Shown: piece by piece, positions 12,412 through 26,068 of the stretch | How the letters are laid out: the number at the start of each line of letters is the position of its first letter | Position numbering within the stretch: the stretch's first letter is position 1 | Assembly: GCF_036226445.1 (NCBI RefSeq) | Contig: NZ_CP108474.1 | Span: 5,208,001-5,272,000, forward strand | Length of the DNA: 64,000 bases | Source of the DNA: Streptomyces sp. NBC_01255 | GTDB lineage: Bacteria; Actinomycetota; Actinomycetes; Streptomycetales; Streptomycetaceae | Direction of reading: 5' to 3' | Made by a program: the position numbers and the translations under genes | The notes under the pieces: model-generated | Database searches by the model: none | Seen by the model: only the letters and a program-made list of their open reading frames with translations | Told to the model about the DNA's origin: nothing

Positions 12412-12570
12412 CCGCTCGCCACCGCGGGCCCCGTCGACCGAAACGCCGAATCCTGCCGTCGGCCGATGGGAACGTCGCGTAAGCGCCGTAGGCAGGAGCG
12501 GGGGACCCAAGGTAAGTGCCGACCCCGGCCGTTGAGACAGACGGCCGACGATCGGCTAGGGGTTAAGTCG
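12412..12570 (+). ncRNA. ydaO-yuaA (c-di-AMP) riboswitch aptamer
   Basis: The leader carries hallmark conserved blocks of the ydaO class: GCCGAATCCTGCC near 12445-12457, GGCAGGAGCGGGGGACCCA from 12491, and ATCGGCTAGGGGTTAAG near 12551-12567. TCCTGCC (12451-12457) pairs perfectly with GGCAGGA (12491-12497), forming the main stem. ydaO riboswitches bind cyclic di-AMP and usually turn genes off; in S. coelicolor this class is established upstream of rpfA, linking c-di-AMP to cell-wall lysis and germination. Exact boundaries are approximate. Confidence 0.9.
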
Positions 12571-12640
12571 CGTGCTAGGACACGCGGCCGGACAACTCAT
12601 TGGTCCGAACCCGACAGCTCACCTCGTAGGCGTCGGTGAG
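12569..12640 (+). promoter_or_regulatory. candidate expression platform of the riboswitch
   Basis: Directly after the aptamer, CGCGTG-ctagga-CACGCG (12569-12586) makes a perfect six-base-pair hairpin. Further on, CTCACC (12618-12623) can pair with GGTGAG (12635-12640), which is part of the rpfA ribosome-binding site. The first could act in attenuation and the second would hide the ribosome-binding site. Which is used cannot be decided by eye. Confidence 0.4.
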
Positions 12641-12650
12641 GAGAATCTCC

Positions 12651-20478: not shown

Positions 20479-23010
20479 CTACTCGGCCTTGATGGCCGAG
20501 AGCATGTTCAGCCGCGCGGCGCTCCGGGCCGGCCACAGGGAGGCGAGGACGCCGACCAGGCCGGCCAGGACCAGGAAGATCCCGATCCGGTCCCAGGGCA
20601 GGACCAGGGAGTAGCCCGGCAGGCTGTCGGCGAAGGTCTCGCCGATGGCCCAGCCGAGGAACGCGCCCAGGCCGATGCCGACGACCGCGCCGAACACCGA
20701 GATGACCACGGCCTCCAGACGGACCATCCGCTTCACACGGCGCCGGTCGAGACCGATCGCCCGCAGCATGCCGATCTCCTGCTGACGCTCGAAGACGGAC
20801 ATTGCGAGGGTGTTGACGACGCCGAGGATGGCGATGAGCAGGGCCATCGCGAGCAGGCCGTAGACGATGTTCAGGAGCAGGTTGATCTGCCCGCCGAAGG
20901 TGTCACGGATGTCCTTCTCGTCCATGATGCTGATGGCCGGGTTGTCGCCCAGCGCCTTCGCCAGCGCCTTCTCGTTGGCGGCCGACGGGCCGCCGTCCGT
21001 CTTCACGAAGATCTGCGGCGTGTAGGCCCGCTGCTCGTGCGCCTTGATGGTCTTGTGGTCGATCAGGACCGGCGAGACGAACTCGCTGTCCTTGTAGACC
21101 GCGCCGATCGTGAGCTTGGCCTTGGCCTTGTCGAGGTACTCGACCGGGACGGTGTCGCCGACCTTCAGGCCGCGCTTCGTCGCGGTCTTCTCCGCGACGG
21201 CGATCTTGCCGTCCTTGAGGGAGCCGAGCGAGCCGGTCACGACGTCGAGCTTGAGGACCTGCTCGACGTCGCCGGGGGTGACGCCGGAGGCCGAGGCGTA
21301 GTCGCCCTTGATCTTCAGGGCGCCGGCCTGCTGCGGGGAGACCGCCGTGACGCCCGCGGCCTTCTCCAGGGCGGCCAGCGCCTCGTCGCCGAGGCTCTCG
21401 CCACTGGCCATGGTGATCATGTAGTCGGCCTTGATCTGGTCGACCGTCATCTTGTCCAGGGCGCTGCCGACGGTCGCGCCGAGCACCGAGAGGCCGGTGA
21501 CCAGGGTCAGACCGATGGCGAGCGCGGAGGCGGTGGCGCCGGTACGGCGCGGGTTGCGGACCGCGTTGAGGCCGGCGAGCTTGCCGGAGACCCCGAAGAC
21601 GCTCACGAAGAGCGGGCGGATCAGGGCGATCACGGGCCGGGACAGGAACGGGATCAGCACGATGACACCGATGAGGGTGACGAAGGCGCCGCCCGCGATG
21701 AGCATGCGGCCCTCGTCGCCGCCCTGGCCGGCGCCGAGCACGATCAGGACGACACCGAGCGCGGTGAGCGCGGCGCCGATGGAGTTCCGCACGACGAGCG
21801 ACTTGCCGCTGGGGGTGGAGTGGACGCTGCTCATGGCGGCGACCGGCGGGATCTTCGCGGCGCGGCGGCCGGGCAGCCAGGCCGCGAGCATCGTGATGAG
21901 GACGCCGACGCCGAAGGCGGCGAGGACGGGGGTGGCTTCGAGGACGAGCGGGCCGCCCGGAACCTTCAGGTCGAAGGCGCTCATGGCCGAGCGGAGACCG
22001 GCGGCGAGACCGATGCCCAGGGCGTAGCCGACGGCCGAGGCGACGAGACCGACGAGACCGGCCTCGGCGAGGACGGAACGGGTGATCTGCTTGCGCGAGG
22101 CACCGACCGCGCGCATCAGCGCCAGTTCCTTGGTGCGCTGCGCGACCAGCATGGTGAAGGTGTTGGAGATCAGGAAGACGCCGACGAAGAGGGCGATGCC
22201 CGCGAAGCCGAGCAGGACCTGGTTGAGGTTGCCGAGGCCGGACTCGATGTCCTTGGCCTGCTGGTCGGCGAGGGCCGCGCCGGTCTGGGCCGTGGCGGAC
22301 TTCGGGACGACCTTCAGGACCTCGGTGAGGATCTTGTCCGCGTCGGTGCCGGGGGCGGCGGTGACGGTCAGGTCCCGGAAGAACCCGGGCTTCAGGTAGA
22401 GCTTCTGGGCGACGGGGGTGTCGAAGAGGATCAGGCTGCCGCCCGCGTTGACGGCGCCGTCCTCGGTCGTGAAGACACCGGAGAGGGTGTACTCCTTCAC
22501 CGGGCCGTTGGTGGCGACGCGGACGCTGTCGCCGACCTTGTAGTCGCCCTTGTCGGCGGTGTCCTTGTCCAGGGCGATCTGACCGGCCTCGACCGGCCCG
22601 TCGCCCGCGGTGAAGGCGTACGCGCGGTCCTTGCCGTCCTTGCCGGGCGCGAAGTTGGTGCCCTTGTTGGACCAGCCGACGCCGATCAGCTTGCCGTCCT
22701 TGTCGGGGACACCGGCGAAGCCGTCGACGCGGGCGGAGACGGAGGCGACGCCGTCGAGCTTCCCGACGCGGTCGACGACCGCCTGCGACAGGCCGGGGGT
22801 CTTCTGGGCCTCCGCGTCGCTCGGGTACATGTTCACGGCGACGGCGACGTCGTCGTAGCTCTTGGCGGACTGGCTGCGGAAGGCGCTGGAGAGGGTGTCG
22901 GTGAAGACGAGGGTGCCGGAGACGAAGGCCACGCCGAGCATCACGGCGAGGACGGTCATCAGCAGTCTCGCCTTGTGCGCGAGGACGTTGCGCAGGGCGG
23001 TACGGAACAT
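20479..23010 (-). CDS. ABC transporter permease (FtsX/MacB type, two-domain)
   Basis: An 843-residue membrane protein with the duplicated FtsX architecture. The first helix LLMTVLAVMLGVAFVSGTLVF is followed by an extracellular MacB-like domain. Helices near 260-400 include LLGFAGIALFVGVFLISNTFTMLVAQR, a second block has LGATVGSALD then another periplasmic domain, and the end has LLNIVYGLLAMALLIAILGVVNTLAMSVFERQQEIGMLRAIG. Such permeases use mechanotransmission to export peptides or lipids or to trigger extracellular enzymes; the substrate is unknown. It lies 69 bases downstream of its ATPase gene in the same operon. Confidence 0.92.
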   Translation of the reverse strand: MFRTALRNVLAHKARLLMTVLAVMLGVAFVSGTLVFTDTLSSAFRSQSAKSYDDVAVAVNMYPSDAEAQKTPGLSQAVVDRVGKLDGVASVSARVDGFAGVPDKDGKLIGVGWSNKGTNFAPGKDGKDRAYAFTAGDGPVEAGQIALDKDTADKGDYKVGDSVRVATNGPVKEYTLSGVFTTEDGAVNAGGSLILFDTPVAQKLYLKPGFFRDLTVTAAPGTDADKILTEVLKVVPKSATAQTGAALADQQAKDIESGLGNLNQVLLGFAGIALFVGVFLISNTFTMLVAQRTKELALMRAVGASRKQITRSVLAEAGLVGLVASAVGYALGIGLAAGLRSAMSAFDLKVPGGPLVLEATPVLAAFGVGVLITMLAAWLPGRRAAKIPPVAAMSSVHSTPSGKSLVVRNSIGAALTALGVVLIVLGAGQGGDEGRMLIAGGAFVTLIGVIVLIPFLSRPVIALIRPLFVSVFGVSGKLAGLNAVRNPRRTGATASALAIGLTLVTGLSVLGATVGSALDKMTVDQIKADYMITMASGESLGDEALAALEKAAGVTAVSPQQAGALKIKGDYASASGVTPGDVEQVLKLDVVTGSLGSLKDGKIAVAEKTATKRGLKVGDTVPVEYLDKAKAKLTIGAVYKDSEFVSPVLIDHKTIKAHEQRAYTPQIFVKTDGGPSAANEKALAKALGDNPAISIMDEKDIRDTFGGQINLLLNIVYGLLAMALLIAILGVVNTLAMSVFERQQEIGMLRAIGLDRRRVKRMVRLEAVVISVFGAVVGIGLGAFLGWAIGETFADSLPGYSLVLPWDRIGIFLVLAGLVGVLASLWPARSAARLNMLSAIKAE

Positions 23011-23079: not shown

Positions 23080-23850
23080 TCAGCTCGTGCGGCCCTTGGC
23101 GTCGAAGGCCTTCATGCGGTCGAGCACCCCGTCCGCCGTCGGGTGCAGCATCTCGTCGACGATCCGGCCGTCGGCGAGGAAGATCACGCGGTCCGCGTAG
23201 GAGGCGGCGACCGGGTCGTGGGTGACCATGACGACGGTCTGGCCCAGCTCGCGGACCGAGTTGCGCAGGAAGCCCAGGACCTCGGCGCCGGAGCGCGAGT
23301 CCAGGTTTCCGGTCGGCTCGTCACCGAAGATGATCTCGGGGCGGGAGGCCAGGGCGCGGGCCACGGCCACGCGCTGCTGCTGGCCGCCGGAGAGCTCGGT
23401 GGGGCGGTGGCTGAGCCGGGCGGAGAGGCCGAGCATGTCGATGACCTGCTGGACCCATTGCTTGTTGGCCTTGCGGCCCGCGATGTCCATCGGCAGCGTG
23501 ATGTTCTCCAGGGCCGTCAGCGTCGGCAGCAGGTTGAAGGCCTGGAAGATGAAGCCGATCTTGTCCCGGCGGAGCTGGGTGAGCTGCTTGTCCTTGAGGG
23601 TGGAGAGCTCGGTCTCGCCGATCCGCACCGAGCCGGAGGAGAAGGAGTCCAGGCCGGCGACGCAGTGCATCAGGGTCGACTTGCCGGAGCCGGAGGGGCC
23701 CATGATCGCGGTGAACTCGCCCTGCCGGAAGTCGACGGTGACGTGGTCGAGCGCGACCACCTGGGTCTCGCCCTGTCCGTAGACCTTCGAGAGATCCGTG
23801 GCGCGGGCGGCCACCGCGGTGGCACGGGACACGGTGGGGGTGGTGGTCAC
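23080..23850 (-). CDS. ABC transporter ATP-binding protein (MacB/LolD type)
   Basis: A 256-residue ATPase: Walker A GPSGSGKST at 51-59, Q-loop FQAFNLLPTLTALEN, signature LSGGQQQR at 153-160, Walker B IIFGDEPTGNLD at 173-184 and H-loop His211. The DEPTGNLD and FNLLP sequences are those of the MacB/LolD/FtsE group, matching the FtsX-type permease downstream. GTG 23850 is chosen because GGAG stands eight bases upstream; longer starts would add a non-conserved leader. It would energise the neighbouring permease. Confidence 0.94.
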   Translation of the reverse strand: MTTTPTVSRATAVAARATDLSKVYGQGETQVVALDHVTVDFRQGEFTAIMGPSGSGKSTLMHCVAGLDSFSSGSVRIGETELSTLKDKQLTQLRRDKIGFIFQAFNLLPTLTALENITLPMDIAGRKANKQWVQQVIDMLGLSARLSHRPTELSGGQQQRVAVARALASRPEIIFGDEPTGNLDSRSGAEVLGFLRNSVRELGQTVVMVTHDPVAASYADRVIFLADGRIVDEMLHPTADGVLDRMKAFDAKGRTS

Positions 23851-24172
23851 GAGGGGGACTCCTGTCACTGCGGGGCTGCTGCGGGAACCCCTCCATCGTG
23901 TCGAGCGTTCCGGCCCGGGACGTCCGTCCACGTGCCCGTTCTCGGGGCAGTCTCGAGTCGGACCGGAGCCCCCGATCCTCCTCCTGAGGTATGACGGTGT
24001 CCCTGAGAGACCGCTTCGAGCCGACGTGACAGACGTGCGACGACTTTTCGTCATTCCCGTGGGCTCGGCTTTGCGCCTGCGACCCCCGTCACAGTTCGGC
24101 GAAAAGCCCCTCACCTGCACTGACGAACCCTCAGGCGTCAATAAAATAAGACAACATCGGGCTGATCTTCCG
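23851..24172. other. upstream region of the ABC operon and bldA
   Basis: This 379-base gene-free stretch (to 24229) holds the leftward ABC promoter and the rightward bldA promoter. CCTGAG occurs twice in direct orientation (23983-23988 and 24002-24007, 19 bases apart) around a GTATGACGG word, a layout typical of response-regulator sites. An unusually A/T-rich island AATAAAATAAGACAAC (24140-24155) precedes the bldA promoter. No open frame here looks coding. Confidence 0.45.
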
Positions 24173-24201
24173 CTGAACGAGGGAAGGGGCCCGGATAGGC
24201 T
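24173..24201 (+). promoter_or_regulatory. bldA promoter
   Basis: CTGAAC (24173-24178) and TAGGCT (24196-24201) with a 17-base spacer give a reasonable housekeeping promoter. Transcription would start near 24208, some 20 bases before the mature tRNA 5' end. Confidence 0.6.
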
Positions 24202-24229: not shown

Positions 24230-24316
24230 GCCCGGATGGTGGAATACGCAGACACGGCGAGCTTAAACCTCGCTGGCCTTCGGGCCGTACCGGTTCAAGT
24301 CCGGTTCCGGGCACCA
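24230..24316 (+). tRNA. bldA: tRNA-Leu (anticodon UAA), the bldA tRNA
   Basis: The sequence folds as a class II tRNA: acceptor GCCCGGA (24230-24236) with TCCGGGC (24306-24312), encoded CCA at 24314-24316, anticodon stem GCGAG/CTCGC enclosing the loop CTTAAAC, so the anticodon is TAA, a long variable arm, and T-arm GGTTCAAGTCC. It reads the leucine codon UUA. In Streptomyces this is the only efficient UUA-reading tRNA; bldA mutants lack aerial growth and many antibiotics because TTA codons are confined mainly to developmental and secondary-metabolism genes. Confidence 0.97.
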
Positions 24317-24318
24317 CC

Positions 24319-24348
24319 CCGGGCCGCAGGCGAGTGCCTGGGGCCCGG
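24319..24348 (+). terminator. bldA terminator hairpin
   Basis: CCGGGCC (24319-24325) with GGCCCGG (24342-24348), and inside it CAGGC (24327-24331) with GCCTG (24336-24340) around a GAGT loop, with one G-G mismatch between the two helices. It starts three bases after the CCA end. Confidence 0.8.
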
Positions 24349-24363
24349 AACAGTCCCCTCTGT

Positions 24364-24987
24364 TCAGCTCGGCAGGTGCTCCAGCAGCCAGGAGCCGAGC
24401 TCCTTGGAGAGCAGGGCGGAGCCGGGGTCGGACCCGTCGGTCTTCGACTCGTCGAACGCCTCGACGTCGATCTCGCTCGCGGCGCCGCCGCCGATCAGAC
24501 CGAGCTTGAGGGGCCTCACCGGCCAGTTGCCGTACCGGTCCAGGCGGTCGGCCTCGTCTCCTTCCGCGGGCGCGGTGCCGTCGTGGGAGAAGTAGGCCGC
24601 GGTCTGGTGGTCCATTCGCTGTGTCTCCAGCTTGGCGAGCGTGTAGCGGGCGGCCAGGGCGCCGCGTCCGGTGCCGCCGACGGTCAGCGGGGTGCTGCCC
24701 AGGCGCTCCGCGATCGTGCGCAGGACGACCTCCGTGACGGTGCCGCTGTGACGGTCCAAGGTGTCGTCGGCGGTCAGGCCGACGAGGATCAGGTCGCGGC
24801 CGCTCGCGTGCAGCTCCGCGAGGAGCGCGTACGAGCCGTCGTCGACGCTCGCGGTCAACGCGTCGAGGTCGGTGCCGGAGTCCCCGACGAGGATCACAGG
24901 CTTCTGGATGCCCTTGTGGCCGGGCGCCAGGAAGACCCGGGCCTTGCCTACGGGCAGCTTCCATTCGGTGGTCGGTGCGGTGGCCAT
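24364..24987 (-). CDS. hypothetical protein, possible degenerate alpha/beta-hydrolase fold
   Basis: A 207-residue soluble protein beginning MATAPTTEWKLPVGKARVFLAPGHKGI. The pattern of strands and helices (PVILVGDSGTDLDALT, RDLILVGLTADD, STPLTVGGTGRGALAARYTLAKLE) resembles an alpha/beta hydrolase, with GGTGRG where a G-x-S-x-G elbow would be, so a Thr seems to replace the nucleophile. A C-terminal segment RPLKLGLIGGGAASEIDVEAFDE follows. The fold call is an inference from pattern only. ATG 24987 has GGGAGAG just upstream. It is convergent with bldA and divergent from the Bax-inhibitor gene. Confidence 0.6.
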   Translation of the reverse strand: MATAPTTEWKLPVGKARVFLAPGHKGIQKPVILVGDSGTDLDALTASVDDGSYALLAELHASGRDLILVGLTADDTLDRHSGTVTEVVLRTIAERLGSTPLTVGGTGRGALAARYTLAKLETQRMDHQTAAYFSHDGTAPAEGDEADRLDRYGNWPVRPLKLGLIGGGAASEIDVEAFDESKTDGSDPGSALLSKELGSWLLEHLPS

Positions 24988-25168: not shown

Positions 25169-26068
25169 ATGAGGAGCAGCAACCCGGTCTTCTCGCGACG
25201 GGGGTTCAGCCGCGACAACGGCTACGCGGTGAACGCGCAGCAGCCGCAGGCCGGGGGCCCCGCCGTCGGAACCAACCCGTACGCCACCGGCAACCCGTAC
25301 GCCGAGGGTGCGACGAACCCGTACGCCACCAACCCGTACGCCCCGCAGGACGCCGCGCTCGGCGCCCCGCAGCAGGCCCGCGGCAACGTGATGACGATCG
25401 ACGACGTCGTGAGCCGTACGGCCATGACGCTCGGCACGGTCGTGCTCACCGCCGTCCTGTCCTGGTTCCTGCTGCCGGTCGACTCGGCCAACCTGGGCAA
25501 GTCGTACGGCATCGCCATCGGCGCCGCGCTGGTCGCGTTCGTCCTGGCGATGGTGCAGTCCTTCAAGCGCAAGCCGTCTCCCGCGCTGATCCTGGGCTAC
25601 GCGGCCTTCGAGGGCGTCTTCCTCGGTGTGATCTCGGCCGCCGTCTCGACGTACATCGCCGACGGCGTGGTCATCCAGGCGGTCCTGGGCACGATGGCGG
25701 TCTTCGCCGGTGTCCTGATCGCCTACAAGATGGGCTGGATCCGGGTCAACCGACGCTTCTACGGCTTCGTGATGGCCGCTGCCATGGGCTTCATGCTGCT
25801 CATGGTGGTCAACCTCCTCTTCGCCGTCTTCGCCGGCGGTGACGGCCTCGGCTTCCGCAGCGGTGGCCTCGGCATCCTCTTCGGTGTCATCGGCGTCATC
25901 CTGGGCGCCTGCTTCCTCGCCCTCGACTTCAAGCAGGTCGAGGACGGCGTGAACTACGGCGCGCCGCGCGAGGAGGCCTGGCTGGCCGCCTTCGGTCTCA
26001 CCATGACCCTGGTGTGGATCTACCTGGAGATGCTGCGTCTGCTGTCGATCCTGCAGGGCGACGACTGA
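25169..26068 (+). CDS. Bax inhibitor-1/YccA family membrane protein
   Basis: A 299-residue protein. The first 75 residues are soluble and contain four NPYA units (GTNPYATGNPYAEGATNPYATNPYA); then come seven hydrophobic helices starting at RTAMTLGTVVLTAVLSWFLL and ending LAAFGLTMTLVWIYLEMLRLLSIL. GYAAFEGVFLGVISA and the LDFKQVEDG loop near the C-terminus are typical of the bacterial BI-1 (TMBIM) group, some members of which are calcium leak channels; the role in Streptomyces is unknown. The start has a strong GGAGGAGTGAG site. The NPYA-rich N-terminus is typical of actinobacterial members. Confidence 0.9.
   Translation: MRSSNPVFSRRGFSRDNGYAVNAQQPQAGGPAVGTNPYATGNPYAEGATNPYATNPYAPQDAALGAPQQARGNVMTIDDVVSRTAMTLGTVVLTAVLSWFLLPVDSANLGKSYGIAIGAALVAFVLAMVQSFKRKPSPALILGYAAFEGVFLGVISAAVSTYIADGVVIQAVLGTMAVFAGVLIAYKMGWIRVNRRFYGFVMAAAMGFMLLMVVNLLFAVFAGGDGLGFRSGGLGILFGVIGVILGACFLALDFKQVEDGVNYGAPREEAWLAAFGLTMTLVWIYLEMLRLLSILQGDD

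Follow-up and report, generated by a model that had tools for sequence, protein, structure and literature searches.

The stretch of DNA analysed here (hereafter the window) spans 64,000 nucleotides of Streptomyces sp. NBC_01255, contig NZ_CP108474.1, positions 5,208,001 to 5,272,000. It contains a single transfer RNA (tRNA) gene, read by ARAGORN as a tRNA-Leu with anticodon TAA (Table 1). The first-pass annotation had recognised in it bldA, the leucine tRNA of Streptomyces development specific for UUA, a rare codon; ARAGORN returned identical coordinates, and the CCA end, also claimed, is indeed encoded in the DNA, at 24314-24316. The anticodon, the single copy, the synteny, the conserved promoter and a TTA codon in the adpA gene of the same genome all fit this identity. 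We conclude that the gene is the Streptomyces bldA orthologue, in itself an ordinary and well-studied gene. What is new is comparative, and concerns an anomaly in the elbow of the tRNA, an element upstream of the gene, a phage landing site at its 3′ end, and plasmid cassettes carrying UUA-reading tRNAs.

Table 1. Features in and around bldA in the window (positions counted from the first base of the window)
Feature	Position	Strand	Basis
bldA, tRNA-Leu(UAA), 87 nt with CCA	24230..24316	+	ARAGORN, single-copy searches, fold
Anticodon TAA	24264..24266	+	ARAGORN, position 35
D-loop GAATACGCAGA, single G, exceeding the usual bldA loop by 2 nt	24242..24252	+	tRNA comparison
3′-terminal 25 nt (T-arm, acceptor strand, CCA), used by phages as attachment core in relatives	24292..24316	+	24 of 25 bases identical to the copy in phage Chymera
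Conserved block with predicted promoter P1: CTGACG (24120-24125), 16 nt, TAAAAT (24142-24147)	24120..24160	+	Conservation, sigma-70 scan
Predicted promoter P2 of the first-pass annotation, CTGAAC-17-TAGGCT	24173..24201	+	Sequence, conservation
Strong hairpin without T-run, possible terminator	24319..24348	+	Fold prediction
ATP-binding cassette (ABC) transporter ATPase, divergent neighbour, start approximate	23080..23865	-	PF00005, synteny
FtsX/MacB-type ABC permease	20479..23010	-	PF02687 (FtsX), PF12704 (MacB_PCD)
Gene separating bldA from the Bax-inhibitor-type gene, about 207 amino acids by homologues, open frame to 25095	24364..24987	-	Homologues; distant relatives are esterases/lipases
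Membrane protein gene labelled Bax-inhibitor type	25169..26068	+	tblastn synteny, frequent downstream neighbour in relatives

A DNA search of the genome of this strain (8.57 Mb, rated 100% complete) gave a single match to bldA, and no other TAA anticodon occurs among its tRNAs read with ARAGORN, which make up part of the 68 tRNA matches above cut-off. The leucine tRNAs read have the anticodons GAG (three genes), CAG, TAG, TAA (bldA) and CAA. A covariance model of bldA (R1), run on the same genome at E values up to 10, returned bldA and the three Leu(GAG) genes, and no second TAA gene. Neither of the two outcomes that the first-pass annotation had named as contrary to its proposal, a different anticodon or a second tRNA-Leu(UAA) in the genome, was found, nor was any other reader of UUA. 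With the Rfam tRNA model the gene stayed below the gathering score in the scan of the window, and in the search of the whole genome it scored 49.6 bits, above the cut-off. A single Leu(CAA) gene was found in the genome (C1:6564997-6565069); it is short, 74 nt, and class-I-like, without a long variable arm, unlike the ordinary class-II Leu(CAA) genes of other Streptomyces (L438-L445).

The predicted fold of the tRNA has an energy of -39.4 kcal/mol (z -2.4 compared to shuffled sequences). That it folds cleanly, as had been claimed, is true of the acceptor, anticodon, variable and T arms, which are as expected, and not of the D-arm, which is non-canonical at minimum energy: bases 10-12 pair with 18-20, not with their usual D-stem partners 24-26. 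In a usual bldA (L035), the D-stem is canonical in the minimum-energy fold. The D-loop of the window gene has a single G and thereby lacks the nearly universal G18-G19 of a canonical elongator tRNA; whether residue 18 or residue 19 is absent varies with the alignment. Compared to the usual loop AATGC, that of the window, AATACGC, has 2 additional nt, which do not restore the GG. A loop with 1 additional nt, intermediate between the common form and that of the window and also without GG, is found in G076 (L032). This genome harbours the closest relative of the window bldA in a BLAST survey of 150 genomes of the genus.

The single G is a family-wide feature. Within the genome of the strain, GG is present in the D-loop region of 45 of the 46 distinct tRNA sequences read, bldA being the sole exception, by a crude rule and with one of the 46 (from L094) being a doubtful ARAGORN call. 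A single G was read in 138 of 139 Streptomyces genomes (136 of 137 without G050 and G553, which were fetched by a pattern that fixes the loop), in all 20 genomes read from the family outside Streptomyces (14 genera), and in the one sister-family genome (G259). GG is found in all 6 representatives read from the next family of the order and in all 9 loci read from six further families. The 139 genomes are a subset of those searched, leaning towards good matches to the window bldA; the named genome_contigs loci were excluded from this tally, as their search pattern fixed the loop, and loci outside the family were read only where the locus had been fetched and the anticodon was TAA. The exceptional L260, in G113, is the sole Streptomyces bldA read with GG in its D-loop, and the upstream block described below was not found there either. 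In the elbow of tRNAs, residue 18 pairs with 55 and residue 19 with 56, and RNase P, RNase Z, the CCA enzyme and the ribosome all make use of this elbow (PMC4810234). In the literature searched, which consisted of listings and of passages of some papers, neither the single G of bldA, nor bldA as a bacterial attachment site (attB), nor plasmid UUA tRNAs were mentioned. The title of Lawlor 1987 reportedly speaks of a "tRNA-like product", so that the unusual D-loop may already have been recognised at that time.

Upstream of the gene, the promoter pair proposed by the first-pass annotation (P2) is exactly where it had been placed, and its TAGGCTC is conserved among relatives, although a simple sigma-70 scan did not list it. 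More strongly conserved than P2 is a block located further upstream, which had been missed. It contains the pair CTGACG-16-TAAAAT (P1), oriented towards bldA, which the scan found once where 0.1 occurrence was expected. The 22-nt core of the block, CAATAAAATAAGACAACATCGG, is exact in 117 out of 286 bldA loci, and is found with at most 2 mismatches in 235 of them (the 286 loci, also used for synteny, comprise some genomes twice and include the named genome_contigs loci). With up to 5 substitutions allowed, none of the 6 next-family loci yielded the block, while a TAnGCT-like -10 can be read in them by eye. We read the block as a promoter or activator site that would have been added in the Streptomyces family. 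In S. lincolnensis and S. ghanaensis, AdpA is an activator that binds the bldA promoter (PMC6819324, PMC3814723), and the block may be the corresponding AdpA site, for which it is a candidate only. A search with an AdpA consensus gave 12 scattered matches with 1-2 mismatches, counted without chance control, and led nowhere.

The other partner of the switch is present in the same genome. Its adpA gene (C1:5545593-5546609), which encodes a global activator, has a single in-frame TTA, placed in the interdomain part, in the RYLDRSLPEE stretch (...QERYLDRSLPEE...). An interdomain TTA was found in 11 of the 18 genomes searched for it. In G388 and G261 the TTA is elsewhere in the aligned part of adpA, in G262 it is in frame upstream of the aligned part, and among these 18 genomes it is absent from G259, G266 and G267. 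The adpA TTA has been described as a Streptomyces/Kitasatospora trait, and as the hallmark of the bldA-adpA link (PMC4255298).

As for bldA itself, a BLAST match was obtained in 146 of the 150 genomes of the genus. A diverged bldA is present in G113, which gave no BLAST match, and none was found in G030, G130 and G139. True loss was rejected for these three genomes because adpA keeps its TTA in all of them, so that an assembly gap is likelier. Three genomes of the genus g79 (G442, G517 and G522) also gave no bldA match; the adpA TTA is kept in the first two, and for G522 no close adpA was found, only a distant homologue. A second bldA in other Streptomyces chromosomes was considered and rejected as well: the second covariance-model matches that were fetched and read are all Leu(CAA) (8 out of 8).

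Taken together, these observations make us confident that the gene, the only UUA reader found in this genome, is bldA, with promoter-like pairs and a gene order like those of its relatives. According to published work in other species, the leucine-charged tRNA would limit translation of the few mRNAs containing UUA, AdpA would in turn activate bldA, and the loop would delay development and antibiotic production until the tRNA has been made in sufficient amount. Control would most likely be seated in transcription, via the conserved block (P1) added to an older promoter (P2). Several points weigh against this scheme. No TTA codon was found in the 46 window genes called by a rough codon-bias rule. 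P1 and P2 are predicted promoters, and the block was not found within 5 substitutions in L139, L260, L361, L362 and L363, nor in a number of loci from other genera of the family. In S. coelicolor, bldA is transcribed at a level like that of other tRNAs (PMC4681348); a study without temporal difference, contrary to a purely transcriptional control, is cited in PMC12772374; and a BldD target within bldA is mentioned in PMC4255298. Early scarcity is itself debated, evidence of a functional bldA tRNA early in growth being cited in PMC11836424, and there is no agreed cause of the bldA delay (PMC12772374). The one TTA of the window lies in the over-extended start of the ABC gene.

The absence of strong temporal change in S. 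coelicolor, to which PMC4681348 and the work cited in PMC11836424 point, would suit an ordinary low-use tRNA without temporal role. Given that the adpA TTA is conserved in the genome of the strain, and that the upstream block is conserved too, we consider this very unlikely. The block, which is positioned between two divergent genes, could also serve the ABC exporter rather than bldA. However, six loci of the family (L348, L355, L357, L454, L460 and L469) retain it, at 0-5 substitutions, while their ABC genes are absent or only weakly matched (28-29%), so that it belongs to bldA; the promoter-like pair within it is moreover directed at bldA, and a function for the exporter appears improbable. 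A last explanation, possible though rather doubtful in our eyes, is that the delay is set post-transcriptionally by the tRNA, a weak one-G elbow making processing, modification or ribosome use slow until late growth. The taxonomic distribution of the single G, the isolation of bldA among the tRNAs of its own genome, the grip of the maturation enzymes and the ribosome on the elbow, and the non-canonical D-arm of the window copy in silico all agree with it, as do the proximity of the single-G boundary to the printed boundary of the adpA TTA codon (PMC4255298), and the location of the classical bldA16 and bldA62 mutations in the D-arm (PMC11836424). Yet an experiment cited in PMC3814723 indicates that the tRNA scaffold does not determine the regulatory role; G113 has GG and nevertheless an adpA TTA, the sister-family G259 has a single G and no adpA TTA, and G388 and G261 have the TTA elsewhere in the gene. 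Furthermore, the D-stem of a usual bldA (L035) is canonical at minimum energy, and one change on one branch amounts to a correlation with n=1. We therefore propose only tentatively that one of the two elbow guanines, both present in the other actinobacterial tRNA-Leu(UAA) genes read, was lost in the Streptomyces family at about the time when UUA became a control codon, a weak elbow then making maturation or use of the tRNA conditional and giving bldA its long-sought post-transcriptional layer. The regulatory relevance of the missing G is something we infer, and the cited experiment speaks against its being the cause of the switch. It is of interest all the same that this tRNA, for whose late availability no cause has been agreed upon, lacks an elbow base family-wide.

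The 3′ end of bldA is used as an attachment site in relatives, and no insertion of this kind was seen at the site of the window itself. A copy of 25-28 nt of this end recurs in at least 6 of the 150 genomes of the genus, the search having scored few candidates per genome; G148 also has one of 56 nt. In five genomes the repeat is downstream of bldA and on the same strand, at 8.2, 19.4, 34.7, 43.0 and 102.8 kb, and four of these (G003, G015, G019 and G140) have a tyrosine integrase gene (PF00589) that begins about 100 nt past the tRNA. In G112, where the repeat is at 8.2 kb, no integrase was found within 1.5 kb. Genes for head, portal and tape-measure proteins are present in the elements of both G015 and G019, and a terminase gene was found in that of G019; these elements are therefore prophages. 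The integrase of G019 shares 62% identity with its counterpart in Chymera (KU958700.1), a cultured Streptomyces phage in whose DNA the core adjoins the integrase gene. The G015 prophage (L034/L072) is 99.96-99.97% identical to Chymera (L510) over the stretches compared, with a distance between repeats, 34,742 bases, equal to the length of the Chymera record. The core is common to the phage site (attP) and to the two junctions (attL and attR) at G015 bldA, and the arms match as expected, the left arm of attP being that of the G015 attR (60/60) and the right arm that of the G015 attL (45/45). As judged from this match of sequences, attB of Chymera is bldA, and the phage itself may derive from its isolation host. 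Lysogeny by a cultured phage with such an attP would exchange part of a developmental gene. On contig C24 of G148, separate from bldA, two partial bldA 3′ ends (L070 and L083) are 8.3 kb apart, possibly as a result of tandem insertions. Partial matches in G149, G055, G096, G042, G065, G063 and G143 had no attachment-site pattern and were dropped.

Mobile DNA also carries UUA tRNAs of its own. A bldA-like tRNA is present on 13 Streptomyces plasmids in PLSDB, with 76-87% identity. ARAGORN read a tRNA-Leu(TAA) in 10 of the 11 plasmid loci fetched, and called a second one, of 75 nt, in L112. Eight of the 11 copies are preceded by genes for a helix-turn-helix protein (annotated as hypothetical in one case), an ATP-binding protein and a ScbR/TetR-type receptor; a Pfam search, made on L104 only, gave an MmyB-like ligand domain, HATPase_c_2 and TetR_N. 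Of these 8 cassettes, 7 have 8-36 nt between the receptor stop and the tRNA, and the eighth, L111, has 322 nt. Cassettes with a tRNA-Leu(UAA) or a decayed copy are those of L104, L105, L106, L108-L111 and L113. When the window gene was aligned with 9 of the 11 plasmid copies, 6 out of 240 stem cells were unpaired, and several pairs had changed on both sides. The L111 copy has GG, that of L113 is degenerate, and those of L107 and L114 have an extra T-loop base. Relatives of the ScbR gene were found on 15 plasmids, 12 of which are also in the list of those with a bldA-like tRNA; two of the remaining three have the three protein genes of the cassette but no listed tRNA. We infer that the cassette is an operon, which would couple an autoregulator receptor to a mobile UUA tRNA. 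Plasmids of this type would bring in a second UUA tRNA together with seemingly quorum-type regulators, and could bypass the chromosomal switch. A pattern of the plasmid-type tRNA matched 4 of 392 genomes, each time with an A that the plasmid copies lack; the places in G047, G050 and G105 fall inside known bldA places, and the one in G553 reads as a tRNA-Leu(TAA).

The surroundings of bldA, which the first-pass annotation had considered comparable across species, were compared accordingly. The ABC exporter it had placed upstream is borne out by the Pfam domains of the two genes. A match to the ABC ATPase is present at the same locus in 254 of the 286 bldA loci, a few of these matches being weak (28-29% identity). 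The order shared is NADH-dehydrogenase-like gene, CFA-type methyltransferase gene, FtsX/ABC pair, bldA and Bax-inhibitor-type gene, and the window bldA is thus in the orthologous position, with the orthologous promoter region. The ABC and FtsX labels come from Pfam; the NADH-dehydrogenase-like, CFA-type and Bax-inhibitor-type ones are putative, and the gene at 25169..26068 in particular is presumably of the Bax-inhibitor type. Of the 178 loci measured, 85 have 109-251 bp between bldA and the start of the latter gene, and others have up to 6.7 kb; the gene was not found within 6 kb of bldA in 11 of 60 loci of 12 kb. From the sequences compared, the upstream side of bldA is largely fixed and the downstream side, given this variable distance, is insertion-prone, the gene directly downstream being one such insert. 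The description of this gene as hydrolase-like is weakly supported: some of its longer homologues are named esterase/lipase, and it has no Pfam match. A relative was seen in just 3 of the bldA-bearing genomes then fetched (that of the strain, G143 and the genome of L232), and the family also occurs in other Streptomyces (44 homologues).

The hairpin downstream of the tRNA is real (-29.5 kcal/mol, z -4.7); as a terminator, which it had been called, it lacks a T-run and is not general. Over the 60 nt 3′ of bldA in relatives, the median energy was -20.7 kcal/mol, against -19.2 for shuffled sequences, and 184 of 285 loci were more stable than their shuffles, so that a conserved terminator was rejected. 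Elsewhere in the window, a cyclic di-AMP riboswitch (RF00379, 66.8 bits) is present at 12474-12647 on the forward strand, just before a gene for a secreted protein that looks like a resuscitation-promoting factor.

Compared to the known bldA genes of S. coelicolor, S. griseus and S. ghanaensis, the window gene is likewise a single-copy, UUA-reading leucine tRNA, linked to AdpA through the TTA of adpA (PMC2000904, PMC3814723, PMC4255298, PMC4932002). It differs from them by a D-loop 2 nt longer than usual, a form read in 1 of the 139 Streptomyces genomes, and by the extra gene directly downstream. The use of the bldA end by Chymera and its relatives follows the usual pattern of tRNA-gene attachment sites, with the 25-nt tRNA 3′ end at both ends of the element and a tyrosine integrase gene about 100 nt from the tRNA, except that the target is here the developmental tRNA bldA. 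Finally, the plasmid copies resemble other tRNA genes borne by plasmids or phages in being extra tRNA-Leu genes on mobile DNA, and differ from them in that the Streptomyces copies mostly follow genes for a helix-turn-helix protein, an ATP-binding protein and a receptor of the ScbR family.
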